Shown piece by piece: positions 9,367-51,348 of a stretch of 53,161 bases of DNA (its first letter is position 1; every line of letters starts with the position of its first letter). The translations under genes and the position numbers were made by a program. The stretch is from Myxococcales bacterium (lineage in GTDB: Bacteria > Myxococcota_A > UBA9160 > UBA4427). The stretch spans positions 33,484 through 86,644 of the forward strand of contig DUCT01000160.1 in assembly GCA_012959665.1 (NCBI GenBank). Direction: 5' to 3'. A model generated the notes under the pieces. That model saw nothing but the letters and a program-made list of their open reading frames with translations, searched no databases and was not told where the DNA came from.

Positions 9367-9839
9367 GCGAATCCGATAACTCCGAGGCAGGTGCACGCCC
9401 GGCTGGGCCCCCTGCATCCCCCGCTGGCGGAACCGGCGACAGTCGGCCGAGTCGAGGCCCCAGTGCTGATAGAGGTGATAGAGGTGATCGAGGTGATCGA
9501 GGTGACCGTGGAGATCGAGGTGACCGTGGCGACCGCGGCCCCCCGCGAGGCCCTTGGAGTGTCAAGGCCCAGCTTCGCTCTGCCGCGCGGAAGAAGGCCC
9601 GGAAGGGCCAGAAAAATGGCATGTTTCAGCGCAGGAAGGTGTGCCGCTTCTGCGCGGACAAGACTGCGGTTCTGAACTATCGAGAAGCGAAAACTCTCCG
9701 GCTCTTCATTTCAGAGACCGGTAAAATTACTCCGCGCAGAATCTCTGGAACCTGTTCCAAGCATCAGCGCAAGCTCGCGTCCGAGATCAAGCGGGCTCGT
9801 CATATCGCGCTGCTCCCGTACGCGCCGAGTCACTACTAG
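9363..9839 (+). CDS. rpsR: 30S ribosomal protein bS18 with low-complexity N-terminal extension
   Basis: C-terminal bS18 core '[64 protein letters not shown]'; overlaps rpsF stop. Confidence 0.94.
9468..9539 (+). repeat. In-frame 9-bp tandem repeat (8 units) encoding (Asp-Arg-Gly)8 in rpsR
   Basis: Read directly: gat aga ggt x2, gat cga ggt x2, gac cgt gga, gat cga ggt, gac cgt ggc, gac cgc ggc. Confidence 0.97.
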
Positions 9840-15993: not shown

Positions 15994-16030
15994 CAGCGAT
16001 TGGAAGTGATTGGAATTGGAAGCGATTGGA
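15994..16030. repeat. Short direct repeat (agcgattgga/agtgattgga/attgga/agcgattgga) between convergent mpl and padR
   Basis: Read directly from sequence. Confidence 0.7.
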
Positions 16031-17197: not shown

Positions 17198-19003
17198 CTA
17201 GACGTCCAATCCGACGGATCGCATCAACTCGATGGCATTGCTTCGAGCGACGACACCCTCTCGCAGGCGAAAGTCGAAGAACATTCGGCCGTTCTCGATC
17301 CTGTCCTGGAAGTGCACATTACTCACGGCCAATTCCCTGTGCTCGGCGATCCGTGCCAAGGCGAGGTCGTGGGTGGTCACGATCCCAATGGCTCCCCGCT
17401 TGAGAAGGCCCCGAACCACGGCGTCGGCACCGATTTTTCGGTCGTGGGAGTTGGTGCCATGCAGCACCTCGTCGAGGAGAAACAGAACTGGCCATTCCTG
17501 GGCAGTCAAATCGACGATCTGTCGCAAGCGCTTGATTTCGGCCAGGAAATGCGATGTGCCGGTGCGGAGTGAGTCGCTGATGCGGATAGAAGCTCCGATT
17601 TGAATCGGGGAGAGCCTCAGGCGGTTCGCCCGGACTGGGGCCCCCGCCAAGGCCATTATGGTTGCGCAGCCGGCGGTTCGTAGGAGAGTGCTCTTGCCCG
17701 ACATATTCGAGCCGCTCATCACCAGGGCCCGGCAGTCCCTCGAGAGGGTCAGGTCGTTGCGCACGCATGCGTCACCGAAGATCAGCGGGTGCCCCAGGCC
17801 CTCGGCCTCAAAGACAGGGCCGTCCTCGACGATCTCGGGGAAAACATGCCCGGGCTGTTCATACGCGTATCCCGAGAGGGCGCAGAGAACCTCGATCTCC
17901 GCCGAAGCATCCACCCAGGGGCCAAGGGTGGGGCCGCAGTCCGCTCTCCAGCGCTCAAGCGCCAAGGCCATCTGGGTTCCCCAGAGCAGGAGCCCGCCGA
18001 TGGGTGCAAAAAACTGGTTGCGCCGGGCATCGAGAAACTGCATCAGGCGACCCAATTGGGCGATTTTCCGAGAGGGCGGCATGGCCTGCCCCGCCAGGGA
18101 ATGAGAAAGTTCCTTAAGACGGTCCGCCTCCATGGGTTCTTCCTCGAGCCGGGCTAGGAGGCCCGAAAGAACCGCCAGGTCCTGGCTGGGTGCCTCAGCG
18201 GCTGCCAGCGTGGCGACCACCTGGGACCGCAGCGCCAGTGCAAAGGCAGACTGAACTGCAATCGCGAAGAGGAAAGGAATTGCGCCGGCACCGGTCAAGA
18301 TCCATGCAGCCAGGGAGCCGAGGGTGGTGACCGTCAGGGCGCCCGCCACCCAATGCAATCCCGCGGTGGGCAGGGAGGCCGGTCGATTTCCCCACTCGAT
18401 GAGCCGTTCGGCGCCGATCCGATTGCCCACGTCTTCGCCGATGAGCGCGAGATCCCGTCGCAACTCGATCTTGGGGACCAGTTCTCTCACCGCGGCCTGA
18501 CGCTGGCGCGTGATGGCGGCTGGCGCGGGTTCCAGTAACCAGCGGGCGAGCAGGTTCGCCCCGGCCGAAGTTCGCACCGTGCCCAGGAGTTCGAAGAGCG
18601 AGCCCTCACCGAAAATATCCAGATCGTTGGCGTAGGGATGGGCGGGATCGAGGTAACGCAGGCCCGAGTGGCCTTTCCCAGGCCAGCTGCCGTCTATTCG
18701 GGCCAGGCCGAGGGCGAAGAAACTCGCTGTTCGTTCGATCACCCTCAGCCGCCGGATCGCTCGATCGTGCAGGATCACGAGAAGCAGGAAGAGCCCAGCG
18801 GGCGGCAGCACCCAACTCGCCGGGATCTGATGGCTGCCGAAGGCCAACCATCCCGCGACGAGGCCCACGGCGAAGACGCCCAACCGCGTGTGGGAGACCG
18901 AGCGTTCCCAGCGTCGCCAGGTCGTGGCGCCACCTTCAAGATGCTCGGCCCAGCCCGAGTAGACCGATTGCGGGGCACCGCTCCAGGAGGGTTTTGAACT
19001 CAC
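17198..19003 (-). CDS. MutS-like ATPase with predicted N-terminal membrane helices
   Basis: GTG at 19003 in GTGA overlap with thiD stop; TM-like segment 'LGVFAVGLVAGWLAF...WVLPPAGLFLLLVIL'; Walker A 'MSGSNMSGKSTLLRTAG', Walker B 'VLFLLDEVLHGTNSHDR', 'VTTHD'. Confidence 0.88.
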   Translation of the reverse strand: MSSKPSWSGAPQSVYSGWAEHLEGGATTWRRWERSVSHTRLGVFAVGLVAGWLAFGSHQIPASWVLPPAGLFLLLVILHDRAIRRLRVIERTASFFALGLARIDGSWPGKGHSGLRYLDPAHPYANDLDIFGEGSLFELLGTVRTSAGANLLARWLLEPAPAAITRQRQAAVRELVPKIELRRDLALIGEDVGNRIGAERLIEWGNRPASLPTAGLHWVAGALTVTTLGSLAAWILTGAGAIPFLFAIAVQSAFALALRSQVVATLAAAEAPSQDLAVLSGLLARLEEEPMEADRLKELSHSLAGQAMPPSRKIAQLGRLMQFLDARRNQFFAPIGGLLLWGTQMALALERWRADCGPTLGPWVDASAEIEVLCALSGYAYEQPGHVFPEIVEDGPVFEAEGLGHPLIFGDACVRNDLTLSRDCRALVMSGSNMSGKSTLLRTAGCATIMALAGAPVRANRLRLSPIQIGASIRISDSLRTGTSHFLAEIKRLRQIVDLTAQEWPVLFLLDEVLHGTNSHDRKIGADAVVRGLLKRGAIGIVTTHDLALARIAEHRELAVSNVHFQDRIENGRMFFDFRLREGVVARSNAIELMRSVGLDV

Positions 19004-20799: not shown

Positions 20800-20810
20800 T
20801 CCTCGGAATT

Positions 20811-20900
20811 CTTACCTTCGATCTTCTTACCTACGCGCCTCTTACCTTCGCGCCTCTGACCTTCGAGCCTCTGACCCTCCAACCTCTTACCGTCGCGGAT
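20811..20900. repeat. 15-bp direct tandem repeat, 6 units, at a convergent gene junction
   Basis: cttaccttcgatctt/cttacctacgcgcct/cttaccttcgcgcct/ctgaccttcgagcct/ctgaccctccaacct/cttaccgtcgcggat. Confidence 0.93.
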
Positions 20901-20928
20901 AGCGATGGTTGATCGCCGGGGCGCGCGG

Positions 20929-26131: not shown

Positions 26132-26222
26132 CTGGCCTAGGGGCAGGCGCTGGGGTTCGCTGACCGATTGGCCCCTTTGCTAAGTCCGATCGCCGAGCCA
26201 TTTTCCAGGCCTGATTTCTTGA

Positions 26223-26260
26223 GCCCCACGTACTCAGCCCCACGTACTCAGCCCCACGCG
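26223..26260. repeat. 14-bp direct tandem repeat (about 2.7 units) at the lspA/nupC-like convergent junction
   Basis: gccccacgtactca/gccccacgtactca/gccccacgcg. Confidence 0.85.
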
Positions 26261-26341
26261 AAAGGGTCCGCGGGGCAGAGCGCATGGTGGGCGAGGGAGA
26301 CTGGGCTCCCTGGGCTTCCGGAATCCGGGGTAGGGAGATCT

Positions 26342-32252: not shown

Positions 32253-32305
32253 CGCCGGCTTCTCACTGTGCTGAACCCGGCGTGGGACCAGGCCCCTTTT
32301 AGGCA

Positions 32306-32395
32306 CTACTGGGCTTGGTACTACTAGGCCTGGTACTACTAGGCTAGGTACTGCTAGGCCTGGTACTACTGGGTCTGTTTCTACCGAGCCAAAGC
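32306..32395. repeat. 15-bp direct tandem repeat (5-6 units, near-palindromic unit) at the moeA/AsmA-like convergent junction
   Basis: ctactgggcttggta/ctactaggcctggta/ctactaggctaggta/ctgctaggcctggta/ctactgggtctgttt/ctaccgagccaaagc. Confidence 0.93.
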
Positions 32396-32399
32396 GGAG

Positions 32400-46924: not shown

Positions 46925-47929
46925 ATGACGAGCAACCCGCGAGTTTTTGCGAGCCATGGGATGGAGAGTCTTTCGGTTCTGGCGGGTCGAGACCTGCTGT
47001 CCCCGCTGCGGGAACGTTGGGACTGTCGTGTCTGGGAACATGCACGGCGCCCCGTTCCCGAGGAGTTCAAGGCCCTGGCGCATCCCGCTGAGGGATTGCT
47101 CTGCCTGCTCACCGATCGGGTGGATCAGGACCTGATCCAGGCTTGTCCGCGGCTTCGGGCAATTTCGAGCTTTTCGGTTGGGGTGGACCACATCGACCTA
47201 GTCGCCGCGACTGATCGGGGCATTTTGGTAGGAAATACCCCCGGAGTGCTGACCGAAACCACTGCTGACTTGGCCTTTGCTCTGCTCTTGGCCGCAGCCC
47301 GGCGCGTGGGCGAGGCGAGTGATTTTCTGCGCAGGGGCGAATGGGCGGGAGGGCACTGGGAAATCGATGCCTTTGTGGGGAAGGATCTGCACGGCGCCAC
47401 CCTCGGGATTATCGGCCTGGGGCCCATCGGTCAGGCCGTGGCCCGGCGGGCCCAGGGCTTTGGCTTGCGCGTGCTGGGCTGGTCGCGCTCGGGAAGGGAG
47501 GTGCCCGGGGTTCGTGGGCTGGCTCTTCCAGAGTTGCTTGCCGAGTCTGATTTCGTGAGTGTTCACGTGGCTTTGGCCGCCGAAACCCGCGGTTTGCTGG
47601 ACGCCCGGGCCCTGGCCCAGATGAAACCCGGCGCGGTGCTCGTCAATACGGCTCGGGGGGGAATCGTGGACGAGGTCGCCCTGGCCAACGCCCTCCGCTC
47701 GGGACATCTCGGGGCGGTCGGTCTCGACGTATTCGCCCAGGAACCCGCCGCCGGTGACCATCCGTTGCTCGAATTCCCAAATGCGGTGCTCACGCCCCAT
47801 ATCGGGAGTGCCAGCATCGGGACTCGGATCCGAATGGCCGAACTCGCGGTGGACAACCTCGTTGCGGGGCTGGACGGGCATCGGATGCCCCAGTGCGCCA
47901 ACCCAGAGGTCGTAGTCAAAAGGAACTAG
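46925..47929 (+). CDS. D-2-hydroxyacid dehydrogenase (glyoxylate/hydroxypyruvate reductase-like)
   Basis: 'ATLGIIGLGPIGQAVARRAQGFGLRVLGWSRSG', 'MKPGAVLVNTARGGIVDEVALANALRSGHLGAVGLDVFAQEP', 'LTPHIGSAS'. Confidence 0.92.
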   Translation: MTSNPRVFASHGMESLSVLAGRDLLSPLRERWDCRVWEHARRPVPEEFKALAHPAEGLLCLLTDRVDQDLIQACPRLRAISSFSVGVDHIDLVAATDRGILVGNTPGVLTETTADLAFALLLAAARRVGEASDFLRRGEWAGGHWEIDAFVGKDLHGATLGIIGLGPIGQAVARRAQGFGLRVLGWSRSGREVPGVRGLALPELLAESDFVSVHVALAAETRGLLDARALAQMKPGAVLVNTARGGIVDEVALANALRSGHLGAVGLDVFAQEPAAGDHPLLEFPNAVLTPHIGSASIGTRIRMAELAVDNLVAGLDGHRMPQCANPEVVVKRN

Positions 47930-48519
47930 GGTTCTGGGGGCCCACACCGGGCGATGAAGTCCCGCGGTGCAACCACCTGGGCGCCCCCATGACGGCAGCG
48001 CCCCCCGACCTGGTGGTCCGCTGTGACCACCGCGAAGGCCTGAGGGTTCTCGGCTTTCCGTACCCGGGCGACGATCCACTGGTCTGCGGAAGGGGCGAAT
48101 ACGATTCGGGGGTTGCTGTCACCGGACTCGGGGCTGGGCCGTTTGCCGTCGAAGACGATCCAGACCGAGCCGGGTGTGGGCTCCGGTTCGGGCATGTCTG
48201 GGTCGAGGGCCTCGGGCGGCCCGGGCCCCCCGTCGGGTTTTGGCGCCATGCCGTCGAACTCCAGCACTCGATTGCGAAGGAGGTCACGGCCCTTTTTACT
48301 CCACCAATCGATGTTGTCCCGGGGCTGGCCGCCGAGCAAGACCGTGTGCAGAACGTTGTAGCCGTCGATGAGCCAGATCGAAGGACTCGCCGGCGCCGGA
48401 TTCGCCTGGGCGGCCCCGGTCCGGGGCGACGTGCAGGCCCGGGCTTCCCCCGGGCTCTGTCTCGGCCTCTCGCTCACTTTTTGTTCACTTTGTTTAATTT
48501 TATCGTTGTATTTTATCAT
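47926..48519 (-). CDS. YacP-like NYN-domain (PIN-like) RNA-binding/nuclease protein
   Basis: 'SIWLIDGYNVLHTVLLGGQP' NYN start; acidic 'WIVFDGKRPSPESGDSNPRIVFAPSADQWIVARV' core; start uncertain (48519 or 48573). Confidence 0.7.
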   Translation of the reverse strand: MIKYNDKIKQSEQKVSERPRQSPGEARACTSPRTGAAQANPAPASPSIWLIDGYNVLHTVLLGGQPRDNIDWWSKKGRDLLRNRVLEFDGMAPKPDGGPGPPEALDPDMPEPEPTPGSVWIVFDGKRPSPESGDSNPRIVFAPSADQWIVARVRKAENPQAFAVVTADHQVGGRCRHGGAQVVAPRDFIARCGPPEP

Positions 48520-48588
48520 CGTGCTGACGTCGTCCCTGGTTTTTCCGTCTCGCCCACTGTGACCCCGCCCCATCGTTTTGACTAACGC

Positions 48589-48696
48589 CTAAACCAAGGT
48601 CTAAACCAAGGTCTAAACCAAGGCGCAAATCAACGCCAAAACCAACGCCAAAACCAAGGCCTAAACCAACGCCAAAACCAAGGCCACAGCCAAGCC
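48589..48696. repeat. 12-bp direct tandem repeat, 9 units
   Basis: ctaaaccaaggt x2/ctaaaccaaggc/gcaaatcaacgc/caaaaccaacgc/caaaaccaaggc/ctaaaccaacgc/caaaaccaaggc/cacagccaagcc. Confidence 0.93.
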
Positions 48697-48757
48697 AACT
48701 CCAATCGTCTTGGGCGTCCTGGGCGACTCGGTTTCCCTGGAAAATCGACACGGGAGG

Positions 48758-48827
48758 CCCCCAGCCGCCCGCCGGGAGGGGGGCGAGCCCGAAGCCTCGG
48801 GGTCCTGAACCGGCGGGCGGCTGGGGG
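48758..48827. repeat. Perfect 18-bp inverted repeat with 34-nt loop
   Basis: Left arm CCCCCAGCCGCCCGCCGG 48758-48775; right arm CCGGCGGGCGGCTGGGGG 48810-48827 (exact reverse complement). Confidence 0.93.
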
Positions 48828-48835
48828 GAACGGCG

Positions 48836-48880
48836 AGATTCTCGGGCCCTAAATTCTCGGGCCCTAAATTCTCGGGCCAA
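48836..48880. repeat. 15-bp direct tandem repeat, 3 units
   Basis: agattctcgggccct/aaattctcgggccct/aaattctcgggccaa. Confidence 0.93.
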
Positions 48881-48960
48881 TTAAAGCGGGGAAAATGCCG
48901 CTGAGCCCAGCCCGACCAAAAGAACGGTCAGCAGGCCGAGCAAGGTCTCAGTGGCACCCG

Positions 48961-49080
48961 TCGGGGGACTGCTCATCATGGGGGTACTTGAGGGGGGACT
49001 GCTCATCATGGGGGTACTTGAGAGGGGACTGCTCATCCTGGGGGTACTCGAGAGGGGACTGCTCATCATGGGGGTACTCG
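48961..49080. repeat. 30-bp direct tandem repeat, 4 contiguous units
   Basis: tcgggggactgctcatcatgggggtacttg/aggggggactgctcatcatgggggtacttg/agaggggactgctcatcctgggggtactcg/agaggggactgctcatcatgggggtactcg. Confidence 0.96.
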
Positions 49081-49269
49081 AGATGGCGGTATTGGAGATG
49101 GCGGTGCTTGAGGCCCGAGCACCTGATACTCGAGCACCTGAGACCCGAGCACCTGAGACCCGAGCGCTTGTGATAAGGACAGCGCTTGTGATAAGGACGG
49201 CGCTTGTGATCGGGCCAGCGCTTGTGATAAGGAGAGGCGAGTCGTAGACAGGCGAGTCGTAGAGAGGCG
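49081..49269. repeat. Compound tandem repeat: 6 x 15 bp (49081-49170), 3 x 18 bp (49171-49224), 3 x 15 bp (49225-49269)
   Basis: agatggcggtattgg/agatggcggtgcttg/aggcccgagcacctg/atactcgagcacctg/agacccgagcacctg/agacccgagcgcttg, then tgataaggacagcgcttg/tgataaggacggcgcttg/tgatcgggccagcgcttg, then tgataaggagaggcg/agtcgtagacaggcg/agtcgtagagaggcg. Confidence 0.93.
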
Positions 49270-49629
49270 AGCCGTCCAGATTTTTTGAAAGGGACGGCGG
49301 CGGCGGGTTCTCCGGTTTCCAGCGCATGCATGATCCTCCGGTACTCGGTTGTTCTTGGCCTCGGGGGCGACCTTCCCAGCATGGAGTCCAGGGGTGACAG
49401 ATGTGGTCACGGCGATCGGGTGTCCCTGGGAATCGGGGTGCGCCTCGGCCCGGGGTTCCCGAGGGAAGCGGCTTGCCCTTTGAGGGGCGGGTCGCCTTTC
49501 CGATCTCGTGTCGATTCGTTAAACCTACCCGGCCTGGGGGTACTTGATTTCGCCCCGACTCCGAGCCGGCGCTCGTCGGCTCGCGCGGCCTATCTTCCAC
49601 TCAATTTGCTTGTTTTTTCGAGGTTTCTC

Positions 49630-51348
49630 GTGGTTCAGGTTTCAAGACACGACATCGTGATCGTGGGGGGGGGCGGCGCCGGGCTTCGAGCCGCCATTGC
49701 CGCCGCAGAGGCGAATCCCGATCTTTCCATCGCTCTGGTCTCCAAGGTCTACCCGATGCGGAGCCACACGGTCTCCGCCGAGGGCGGGGCGGCGGCGATC
49801 GCCCGGGACGACGACAACGAGGAGCTTCACGGTTTCGACACCGTCAAAGGCTCGGATTTCCTCGGCGATCAGGACGTGATCGAATATTTCGTCGAGAACG
49901 CGCCCAGGGAACTCGCCCTGCTGGAAAATTGGGGCTGTCCCTGGAGCCGAAACGAAGACGGCAGCGTCTCCACCCGGGCATTTGGCGGTATGTCCACCAA
50001 GCGCACGTGGTATGCCACGGACAAGGTCGGCTTCCACATGCTCCACGCGCTTTTTCAGCACTCCCTGCGTTTCGACAATATCGTGCGCTACGACGAGTTC
50101 TTCGTGACCAAGCTTCTGGTCGAAGACGGTCGCTGCCAGGGTGTCGCTGCACTCGAAATCCGAACCGGAGAGTTCCACGCGATCCTGGGCCGTTCGGTCA
50201 TTCTGGCCACGGGTGGCGCCGGCAAGATCTTTCCCTTCACGACCAACGGGACGATCAAGACCGGCGACGGGATGGCCCTCGCATACCAAGCGGGCGTAGC
50301 GCTCAAGGACATGGAGTTCGTTCAGTACCATCCGACAGGTTTGCCCGGCACGGGCATCCTGATTACGGAAGCGGCCCGGGGTGAGGGCGGTTATCTGCGT
50401 AACAACAAAGACGAACGCTTCCTGGTCGACTACGACTACGGAGTGGGCGATAAAGCAGAACTCGGCCCACGGGACATGGTCTCTCGGGCGATCATTCAGG
50501 AGTTCGAAGCCGGGCGCGGTTTTGAAGGTCGTTATGGGAAATACTGTGTGGTGGATCTTCGCCACCTCGGCGAGAAGCATATCGACGCCAAGCTTCCCTT
50601 CGTCCGCGAACTTGCGAAAATTTATATCGGCGTGGATCCCGTTCACGAATACATCCCCATCCGGCCGGTGGTTCACTACATGATGGGCGGCGTAGATACC
50701 GACATCAACGCAGCCACCGAATTGCCGGGCCTCTTCGCTGCGGGGGAGGTGGCCTGCGCTTCGCTCAATGGTGCCAATCGTCTGGGGTCGAATTCCTTGA
50801 CCGAGTGCCTGGTTTTCGGAGCGGTGGCGGGCCGGAATGCCATCGAGTTTGCCCAGGGCGCGGGAGAGGGCAATTCGTCGGCTCTCGTCTCCCAAGCCGA
50901 GGAAGAAGCTGCGAGGGTAGAAGCTTTGAGGGGCAACGGGCGGGGGAACGAAAAAATCGCGGGCCTGCGCCATGAGATGAATTCGACAATGGAGGCCGGG
51001 TGCGGGGTTTATCGTATGCAGGAGTCCATGCAGATCGCAGCGACCGAGACTCGGTCGATTCGTAAGCGTGCGGCGGATCTGCACCTCAAGGATTCGAGTC
51101 GAGTCTTCAATACCGAGATCGTCTCCGCCCTTGAGCTCCAGAACATGGTCGAACTCGCCGAGGTTTTGGCTGTCAGCGCGGCCCATCGAAAGGAATCGCG
51201 TGGAGCCCATACCTGCCGAGATTATCCGACGCGCGACGACCAGAGCTTCCTCTATCACACCCTGGCGCATCGGACTGACGATGGGCCTCGCCTGGGTCGG
51301 AAGGAAGTCAAGCTTGGACATTGGGAGCCCCAGGAGCGGAAGTACTGA
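49630..51348 (+). CDS. frdA: Fumarate reductase flavoprotein subunit (FrdA-type)
   Basis: 'DIVIVGGGGAGLRAAIAAAEANPDLSIALVSKVYPMRSHTVSAEGG', 'MEFVQYHPTGLPGTGILITEAARGEGG', 'HYMMGGVDTD', 'ARKESRGAH'-like 'HRKESRGAH'; GTG 49630 with upstream gagg. Confidence 0.93.
   Translation: MVQVSRHDIVIVGGGGAGLRAAIAAAEANPDLSIALVSKVYPMRSHTVSAEGGAAAIARDDDNEELHGFDTVKGSDFLGDQDVIEYFVENAPRELALLENWGCPWSRNEDGSVSTRAFGGMSTKRTWYATDKVGFHMLHALFQHSLRFDNIVRYDEFFVTKLLVEDGRCQGVAALEIRTGEFHAILGRSVILATGGAGKIFPFTTNGTIKTGDGMALAYQAGVALKDMEFVQYHPTGLPGTGILITEAARGEGGYLRNNKDERFLVDYDYGVGDKAELGPRDMVSRAIIQEFEAGRGFEGRYGKYCVVDLRHLGEKHIDAKLPFVRELAKIYIGVDPVHEYIPIRPVVHYMMGGVDTDINAATELPGLFAAGEVACASLNGANRLGSNSLTECLVFGAVAGRNAIEFAQGAGEGNSSALVSQAEEEAARVEALRGNGRGNEKIAGLRHEMNSTMEAGCGVYRMQESMQIAATETRSIRKRAADLHLKDSSRVFNTEIVSALELQNMVELAEVLAVSAAHRKESRGAHTCRDYPTRDDQSFLYHTLAHRTDDGPRLGRKEVKLGHWEPQERKY

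Follow-up and report, generated by a model that had tools for sequence, protein, structure and literature searches.

The window analysed here, a stretch of 53,161 nucleotides, belongs to contig C160 in a MAG of 3.57 Mb in 268 contigs that is 80.5% complete. At the locus of interest the gene order is a D-2-hydroxyacid dehydrogenase gene (plus strand), a gene for a YacP-like NYN protein (minus strand), a repeat mosaic, and frdABCD (plus strand). The longest ORF of the yacP-like gene spans 47926-48573 on the minus strand and its product matches PF05991 (E 2.6e-07); comparison with relatives indicates that it probably starts at a GTG at 48477. The frdA gene occupies 49630-51348 and is followed by frdB, frdC and frdD (to 52917), each of the FrdA, FrdB, FrdC and FrdD proteins being recognised. 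By FrdA, the closest named relatives are Myxococcota and Deltaproteobacteria MAGs, UWMA-0324 (91%) and TMED88 (81%) among them, and the nearest genome to the source has an FrdA identity of 91%. In what follows, G000 is the source genome, G001, G002 and G003 are congeners, G004 is the closest genome by FrdA identity, and G005 and G016 belong to a sister genus.

The repeat mosaic and its flanks

TRF and an inverted-repeat search confirmed the repeat blocks that a sequence-only reading of this interval had noticed; they resolve into arrays of 12, 15, 30, 15, 15, 18 and 15 bp and a perfect 18-bp inverted repeat. The 12-bp array (48587-48698, x8.2-9.4) lies in the spacer upstream of yacP and is non-coding, with an in-frame TAG in the yacP frame, and the perfect 15-bp array at 48838-48878 (x2.7), also non-coding, is placed just 3΄ of the stop codon of a small gene described below. 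The remaining five arrays are within that gene and are read on the minus strand: a 30-bp array (48964-49083, x4.0, 95% matches, no indels) encoding (SSTPMMSSP[PL])n, a 15-bp array (49068-49105, x2.5) encoding AISNT/AISST, a 15-bp array (49109-49165, x3.8) encoding (VSGAR)n, an 18-bp array (49163-49233, x3.9) encoding (VLITSA)n, and a 15-bp array (49235-49275, x2.7) encoding SPLYD/SPVYD. What had been taken for six copies of one 15-bp unit proved to be two different arrays, while the 18-bp array is present as described, although with nearly four copies and not three. At a score of >=40, 27 TRF rows were observed in the window against ~1 when all of it was shuffled with a first-order Markov model, so the mosaic repeats are far beyond chance. 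No structured RNA family was found at E <= 1 across 47800-49700.

Between the small gene and yacP there is a hairpin (48758-48827) with perfect 18-bp arms at 48758-48775 and 48810-48827 and a 34-nt loop; an inverted-repeat search found this pair as the sole inverted repeat of >=12 bp. The hairpin is GC-rich, folds strongly as RNA (z of -4.8) and carries no T-run; it is thus not a classical intrinsic terminator and, judging from its sequence, may include a displaced yacP N-terminus. The G002 spacer contains an 11-bp inverted repeat (shuffle maximum 10 in 60 shuffles) that has the GC-rich core CCGGCGGGCGG in common with the hairpin. A hairpin arm resembles the yacP start of G002, G003 and G001. 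The YacP homologue of G002 (L088) has an N-terminal stretch built from repeats (ERGRERGRERGRGK), so that in this genome the same interval has gained coding repeats in another gene.

The mosaic had been described as lying directly upstream of the fumarate reductase operon, but its end is ~355 bp before the frdA start. Alignment with relatives revealed a palindrome, GTGAC-N7-GTCAC (49394-49410), between the small gene and frdA, which the relatives inspected have either complete or, in G002, G004 and G005, with one altered half-site, and which has four exact sites in the whole 3.57-Mb assembly. A promoter-like block, CTTTCcg...aTTCGgTAAACCTa (49496-49528, plus strand), is conserved upstream of frdA in an alignment of seven genomes. 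The conserved sequence before frdA extends from 49394 to 49528, outside the mosaic. A VNTR locus controlling an operon would have its array at the promoter or start of that operon, whereas here conserved elements stand between the mosaic and frdA.

A small minus-strand gene

Most of the mosaic is part of an overlooked, conserved small gene for a predicted membrane protein. This unannotated gene, of 148 aa, runs from 49327 to 48881 on the minus strand and is recognised by its syntenic homologues in five relatives, by third-position codon differences and by hydropathy. A Shine-Dalgarno sequence, GGAGG (49335-49339, minus strand), is seen 7 nt before its ATG, and GGAG/GAGG-like sites also occur 5΄ of the homologues. 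The product reads MRWKPENPPPPSLSKNLDG-[repeats]-TGATETLLGLLTVLLVGLGSAAFSPL up to the stop codon, with a short N-terminus, a repeat-expanded linker and a C-terminal hydrophobic/transmembrane segment (hydropathy ~2.0 over 19 aa) whose last residues are ...LLTVLLVGLGSAAFSPL. By sequence, a conserved ORF, a C-terminal TM segment and a ribosome-binding site are all present, as in a small tail-anchored membrane protein. The product matches no Pfam or NCBIfam family.

Homologues of 59-145 aa, without these repeats, occupy the same place between yacP and frdA in G001, G003, G002, G005 and G016. Those of G003 and G001 have 59 and 97 aa and end LASAAFSPL, that of G002 has 68 aa and ends LLTAATAPI, and those of the sister genus, G005 and G016, have 145 and 129 aa and a C-terminal hydrophobic segment. 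Over the last 22 codons, the window and G003 differ at codon positions 1/2/3 in 7/3/14 cases, and the window and G001 in 6/4/13; such a bias towards third positions is characteristic of constraint on the protein. A profile built from the homologues matched only this locus, in 4 of the 24 relatives searched (three congeners and G005), a set that left out G016. The small gene is missing from G004, where the profile found nothing, so the gene is dispensable. In G004 (L085 957-1260), where the small gene is lost, the spacer is filled by other arrays with units of 13-15 bp.

Five of the seven mosaic arrays (48964-49275) lie inside the small gene, in the linker that joins the N-terminus to the hydrophobic end. 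The statement that no ORF explains the mosaic is therefore wrong for this part. In all five the unit is divisible by 3, the probability of which is ~0.008 at the non-coding rate. The codon-usage score is -3.6 for the repeat part, which is neutral rather than positive, -1.8 for the whole ORF and +4.2 for the C-terminal 26 codons. A crude codon-usage caller initially favoured a plus-strand ORF (48951-49247) over the small gene; this ORF was rejected as a gene, since it consists almost wholly of repeats and it is the minus strand that encodes the conserved protein. The in-frame arrays probably lengthen the linker of the small protein, a linker that we would expect to be disordered.

Arrays across the genome and among relatives

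Further arrays in the window, away from the mosaic (at 9467, 10334, 10372, 15999, 16755, 20810, 22111, 26222, 32305 and 52916), were a first hint of a genome-wide property. A TRF sample of stretches totalling ~451 kb of the source genome held 60 non-coding and 22 in-gene arrays, a split that is approximate because it comes from a simple codon-usage ORF caller and not from a standard gene finder, and such arrays are thus widespread in genes and spacers. The unit was divisible by 3 in 21 of the 22 arrays in strong genes and in 23 of the 60 outside (Fisher p 2e-6). Non-coding arrays reach at most ~130 bp, and their units cluster at 12-16 bp; their copies have a median of 90% matches, and 12 of the 60 arrays reach 100%. 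The A content of arrays is mildly raised (23.8% vs 19.7%). In-gene arrays mostly encode low-complexity segments, for example SGQGM, AASTQSGP and EAAPV. Another repeat-built linker of the source genome, (AASTQSGP)n, is encoded by a 24-bp x8 in-gene array (L122 914-1105). Per 100 kb of non-coding DNA, the source genome has ~102 non-coding arrays and G004 ~92, as compared with 35 in G001, 31 in G002 and 26 in G003; Markov shuffles gave ~1 array per 100 kb of all DNA. Spacers with an array made up 26% of the convergent, 14% of the same-direction and 22% of the divergent spacers of G000, so that the preference for convergent spacers is weak.

Neighbouring arrays in the genome match in unit sequence above random pairs (mean score 7.1 vs 3.8, p ~4e-6), a score to be read knowing that overlapping arrays trivially have bases in common. 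This unit sharing, together with the behaviour of the arrays as lineage-specific insertions, agrees with the proposal of the sequence-only reading that the mosaic arose by successive local amplification. Within the mosaic itself, the sharing of ends by neighbouring blocks that had been reported is strong at the step from the 30-mer to the 15-mer, but not at the other steps.

None of the seven mosaic arrays was found in 40 relatives, where the only matches were two short stretches of low complexity, 33-48 bp long. The position of the mosaic holds other arrays there: 13-15-mers in G004, 11- and 9-mers in G003, and 21- and 8-mers in G001. Likewise, eight other array-bearing spacers of the window have no array in common with relatives having the same flanking genes, and G004 lacks the arrays at 15999, 16755 and 20810, the three of these eight spacers that were checkable in that genome. 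The spacer at 20800-20928 is 129 bp long and includes an array of 86 bp, while its counterparts in four relatives measure 20-37 bp; that at 32253-32399 is 147 bp long, of which 69 bp are array, and measures 63-76 bp in relatives; and that at 26132-26341 is 210 bp long here and 63-67 bp in relatives. Of the spacers without arrays, several are near-equal in length (388 vs 392; 96 vs 95-98; 80 vs 84-86), although the comparison is not uniform, as some array-free spacers differ too (e.g. 199 vs 294-329). By these comparisons of sequence, the mosaic arrays are lineage-specific and probably recent.

Loss of repair genes was considered as the cause of the excess and rejected, because MutS, MutL and XseA are present in 5/5 congeners. 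RecJ (TIGR00644) gave no match in 41 genomes of the order (G000-G040, 25 of them high-quality), while the same search was positive in 13 of 14 control genomes; RecJ cannot explain the array excess, because it is undetected in low-repeat genomes too. No SbcD was found over the cut-off in the five congeners. The window also contains a MutS-like gene with a MutS_V domain (17207-17722, minus strand), a third such gene that is kept in 5/5 congeners besides two other MutS-family genes.

Origin of the mosaic and comparison with known systems

Arrays of this kind are usually explained by slippage between short direct repeats. We consider it likely that the mosaic consists of recent, lineage-specific slippage minisatellites, clustered here and filtered by reading frame, and that they are tolerated by-products of a repeat-prone lineage and do not serve to control frdABCD. 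Wherever short direct repeats occur by chance, replication slippage would give rise to arrays of ~8-30 bp units, all over the genome, and new arrays would at times begin at the edge of an older one. Within the small gene a frameshift would ruin the conserved C-terminus, so that only units divisible by 3 would persist; this frame-phasing follows if the conserved protein end is under selection, which is supported by the third-position codon differences. The repeats, the conservation of the small gene, the frame-phasing, the genome-wide excess and the lack of these arrays in relatives are direct results of the analysis; we infer the slippage mechanism, the expression of the protein, the disorder of the linker and the near-neutrality of the arrays. 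The mosaic is best read as one of many short tandem repeats made genome-wide by this lineage, and not as a dedicated frd switch. More tentatively, an active repeat-generating process restricted to the lineage of G000 and G004, and comparable to that of Borgs, might continually add new low-complexity, in-frame linkers to proteins, fill spacers and repeatedly remodel small membrane proteins such as the one described here; we regard this as possible, but doubtful.

Could the mosaic instead control frdABCD, as a regulatory or contingency (VNTR) region? The sequence-only reading had suggested a regulatory, insulating or contingency role, and the mosaic does sit between divergent genes close to frdA, with arrays of a kind that can change copy number. 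However, the palindrome and the promoter-like block intervene in the ~355 bp before frdA, none of the seven arrays occurs in relatives with the same frd neighbourhood, including congeners that keep both frd and the palindrome, and the mosaic is largely inside a gene on the opposite strand. We have rejected control of frd as the main reading, since the arrays are absent from relatives and the conserved elements (49394-49528) are outside the mosaic, and we judge it very improbable. A different proposal is that the arrays in the small gene are selected, the expansion of a disordered Ser/Thr/Pro-rich linker adaptively altering the length or the interactions of a membrane-anchored protein. This would suit the strong variation in homologue length (59-148 aa), the in-frame state of 5/5 arrays and the report that in Borgs many of the proteins carrying such repeats are membrane proteins, with the repeats mostly disordered (PMC9879509). 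It seems unlikely to us, given that plain spacers are enriched in arrays of this kind too, that the repeat units are common to no homologue, that codon usage in the repeat part is neutral and that G004 has lost the gene.

That neutral score would also fit a minus-strand ORF that is no gene, in a wholly non-coding mosaic where the multiples of three are coincidental, and period-3 repeats do keep several frames open, including the plus-strand ORF at 48951-49247. Such a coincidence is hard to reconcile with a conserved C-terminal protein sequence showing third-position differences, an SD site, same-place homologues in five genomes and five in-frame arrays out of five, and we give it very little weight. 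An assembly artefact or a mobile repeat element is scarcely credible: the source MAG is fragmented and incomplete, and short-read assembly struggles with repeats, but the non-coding arrays are short and mostly imperfect, and therefore spannable by reads, and a second MAG, G004, has the same array excess. The mosaic had no match in plasmids or phages, and there was no viral contig with the 30-mer pattern; a transposed repeat was rejected, since copies were found neither elsewhere nor in mobile replicons.

These findings have wider implications. An apparently non-coding repeat patch can conceal a conserved small gene, and an uncultured Myxococcota lineage has ~3x the tandem-repeat density of its congeners. 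Comparison of the G000/G004 pair with its low-repeat relatives could help to show what determines how often repeats are born in bacteria, and bears as well on how new disordered protein linkers arise.

A keyword search of the open-access literature found no paper on repeats of this kind in Myxococcota, which is weak evidence of novelty. The contingency loci and VNTRs of pathogens are similar in being short tandem arrays that could change copy number by slippage; unlike them, the arrays described here show no promoter-spacing or frame-switch design and are not conserved at their location. The bacterial 'satellites' of Subirana and Messeguer (2019, PMC6749651) are likewise arrays that occur once each and have no relation to one another, dispersed through the genomes of a few repeat-rich species, and their coding arrays are multiples of three. 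Here, in contrast, the units are mostly of 12-18 bp, and since array definitions differ the densities are not directly comparable. Neither 'Myxococc' nor 'Deltaproteobacteria' was found on searching the text of the paper, so the lineage is not described there.

The archaeal Borg elements (Schoelmerich et al. 2023, PMC9879509) are likewise rich in independent arrays, in genes and in spacers. Borgs are linear extrachromosomal elements, whereas the arrays reported here are on MAG contigs with core chromosomal genes (mutS-like, frd). Nearly perfect copies, a criterion for Borg arrays, are not the rule here (median 90% matches, 12/60 at 100%), and the arrays are short (median ~52 bp) with A only mildly enriched (23.8% vs 19.7%). 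The two systems agree in the frame rule: units divisible by 3 account for all in-gene arrays in Borgs and for 21/22 here, and for only 14-38% of spacer arrays in Borgs and 38% here (PMC9879509). Replication slippage has been invoked for Borgs too, where in-gene arrays form disordered regions (PMC9879509). In both systems, the segments that in-gene arrays encode are probably disordered and often belong to membrane or extracellular proteins, and turnover is rapid and lineage-specific, the arrays here being independent, with none shared with relatives at the mosaic or in the comparable spacers of the window.
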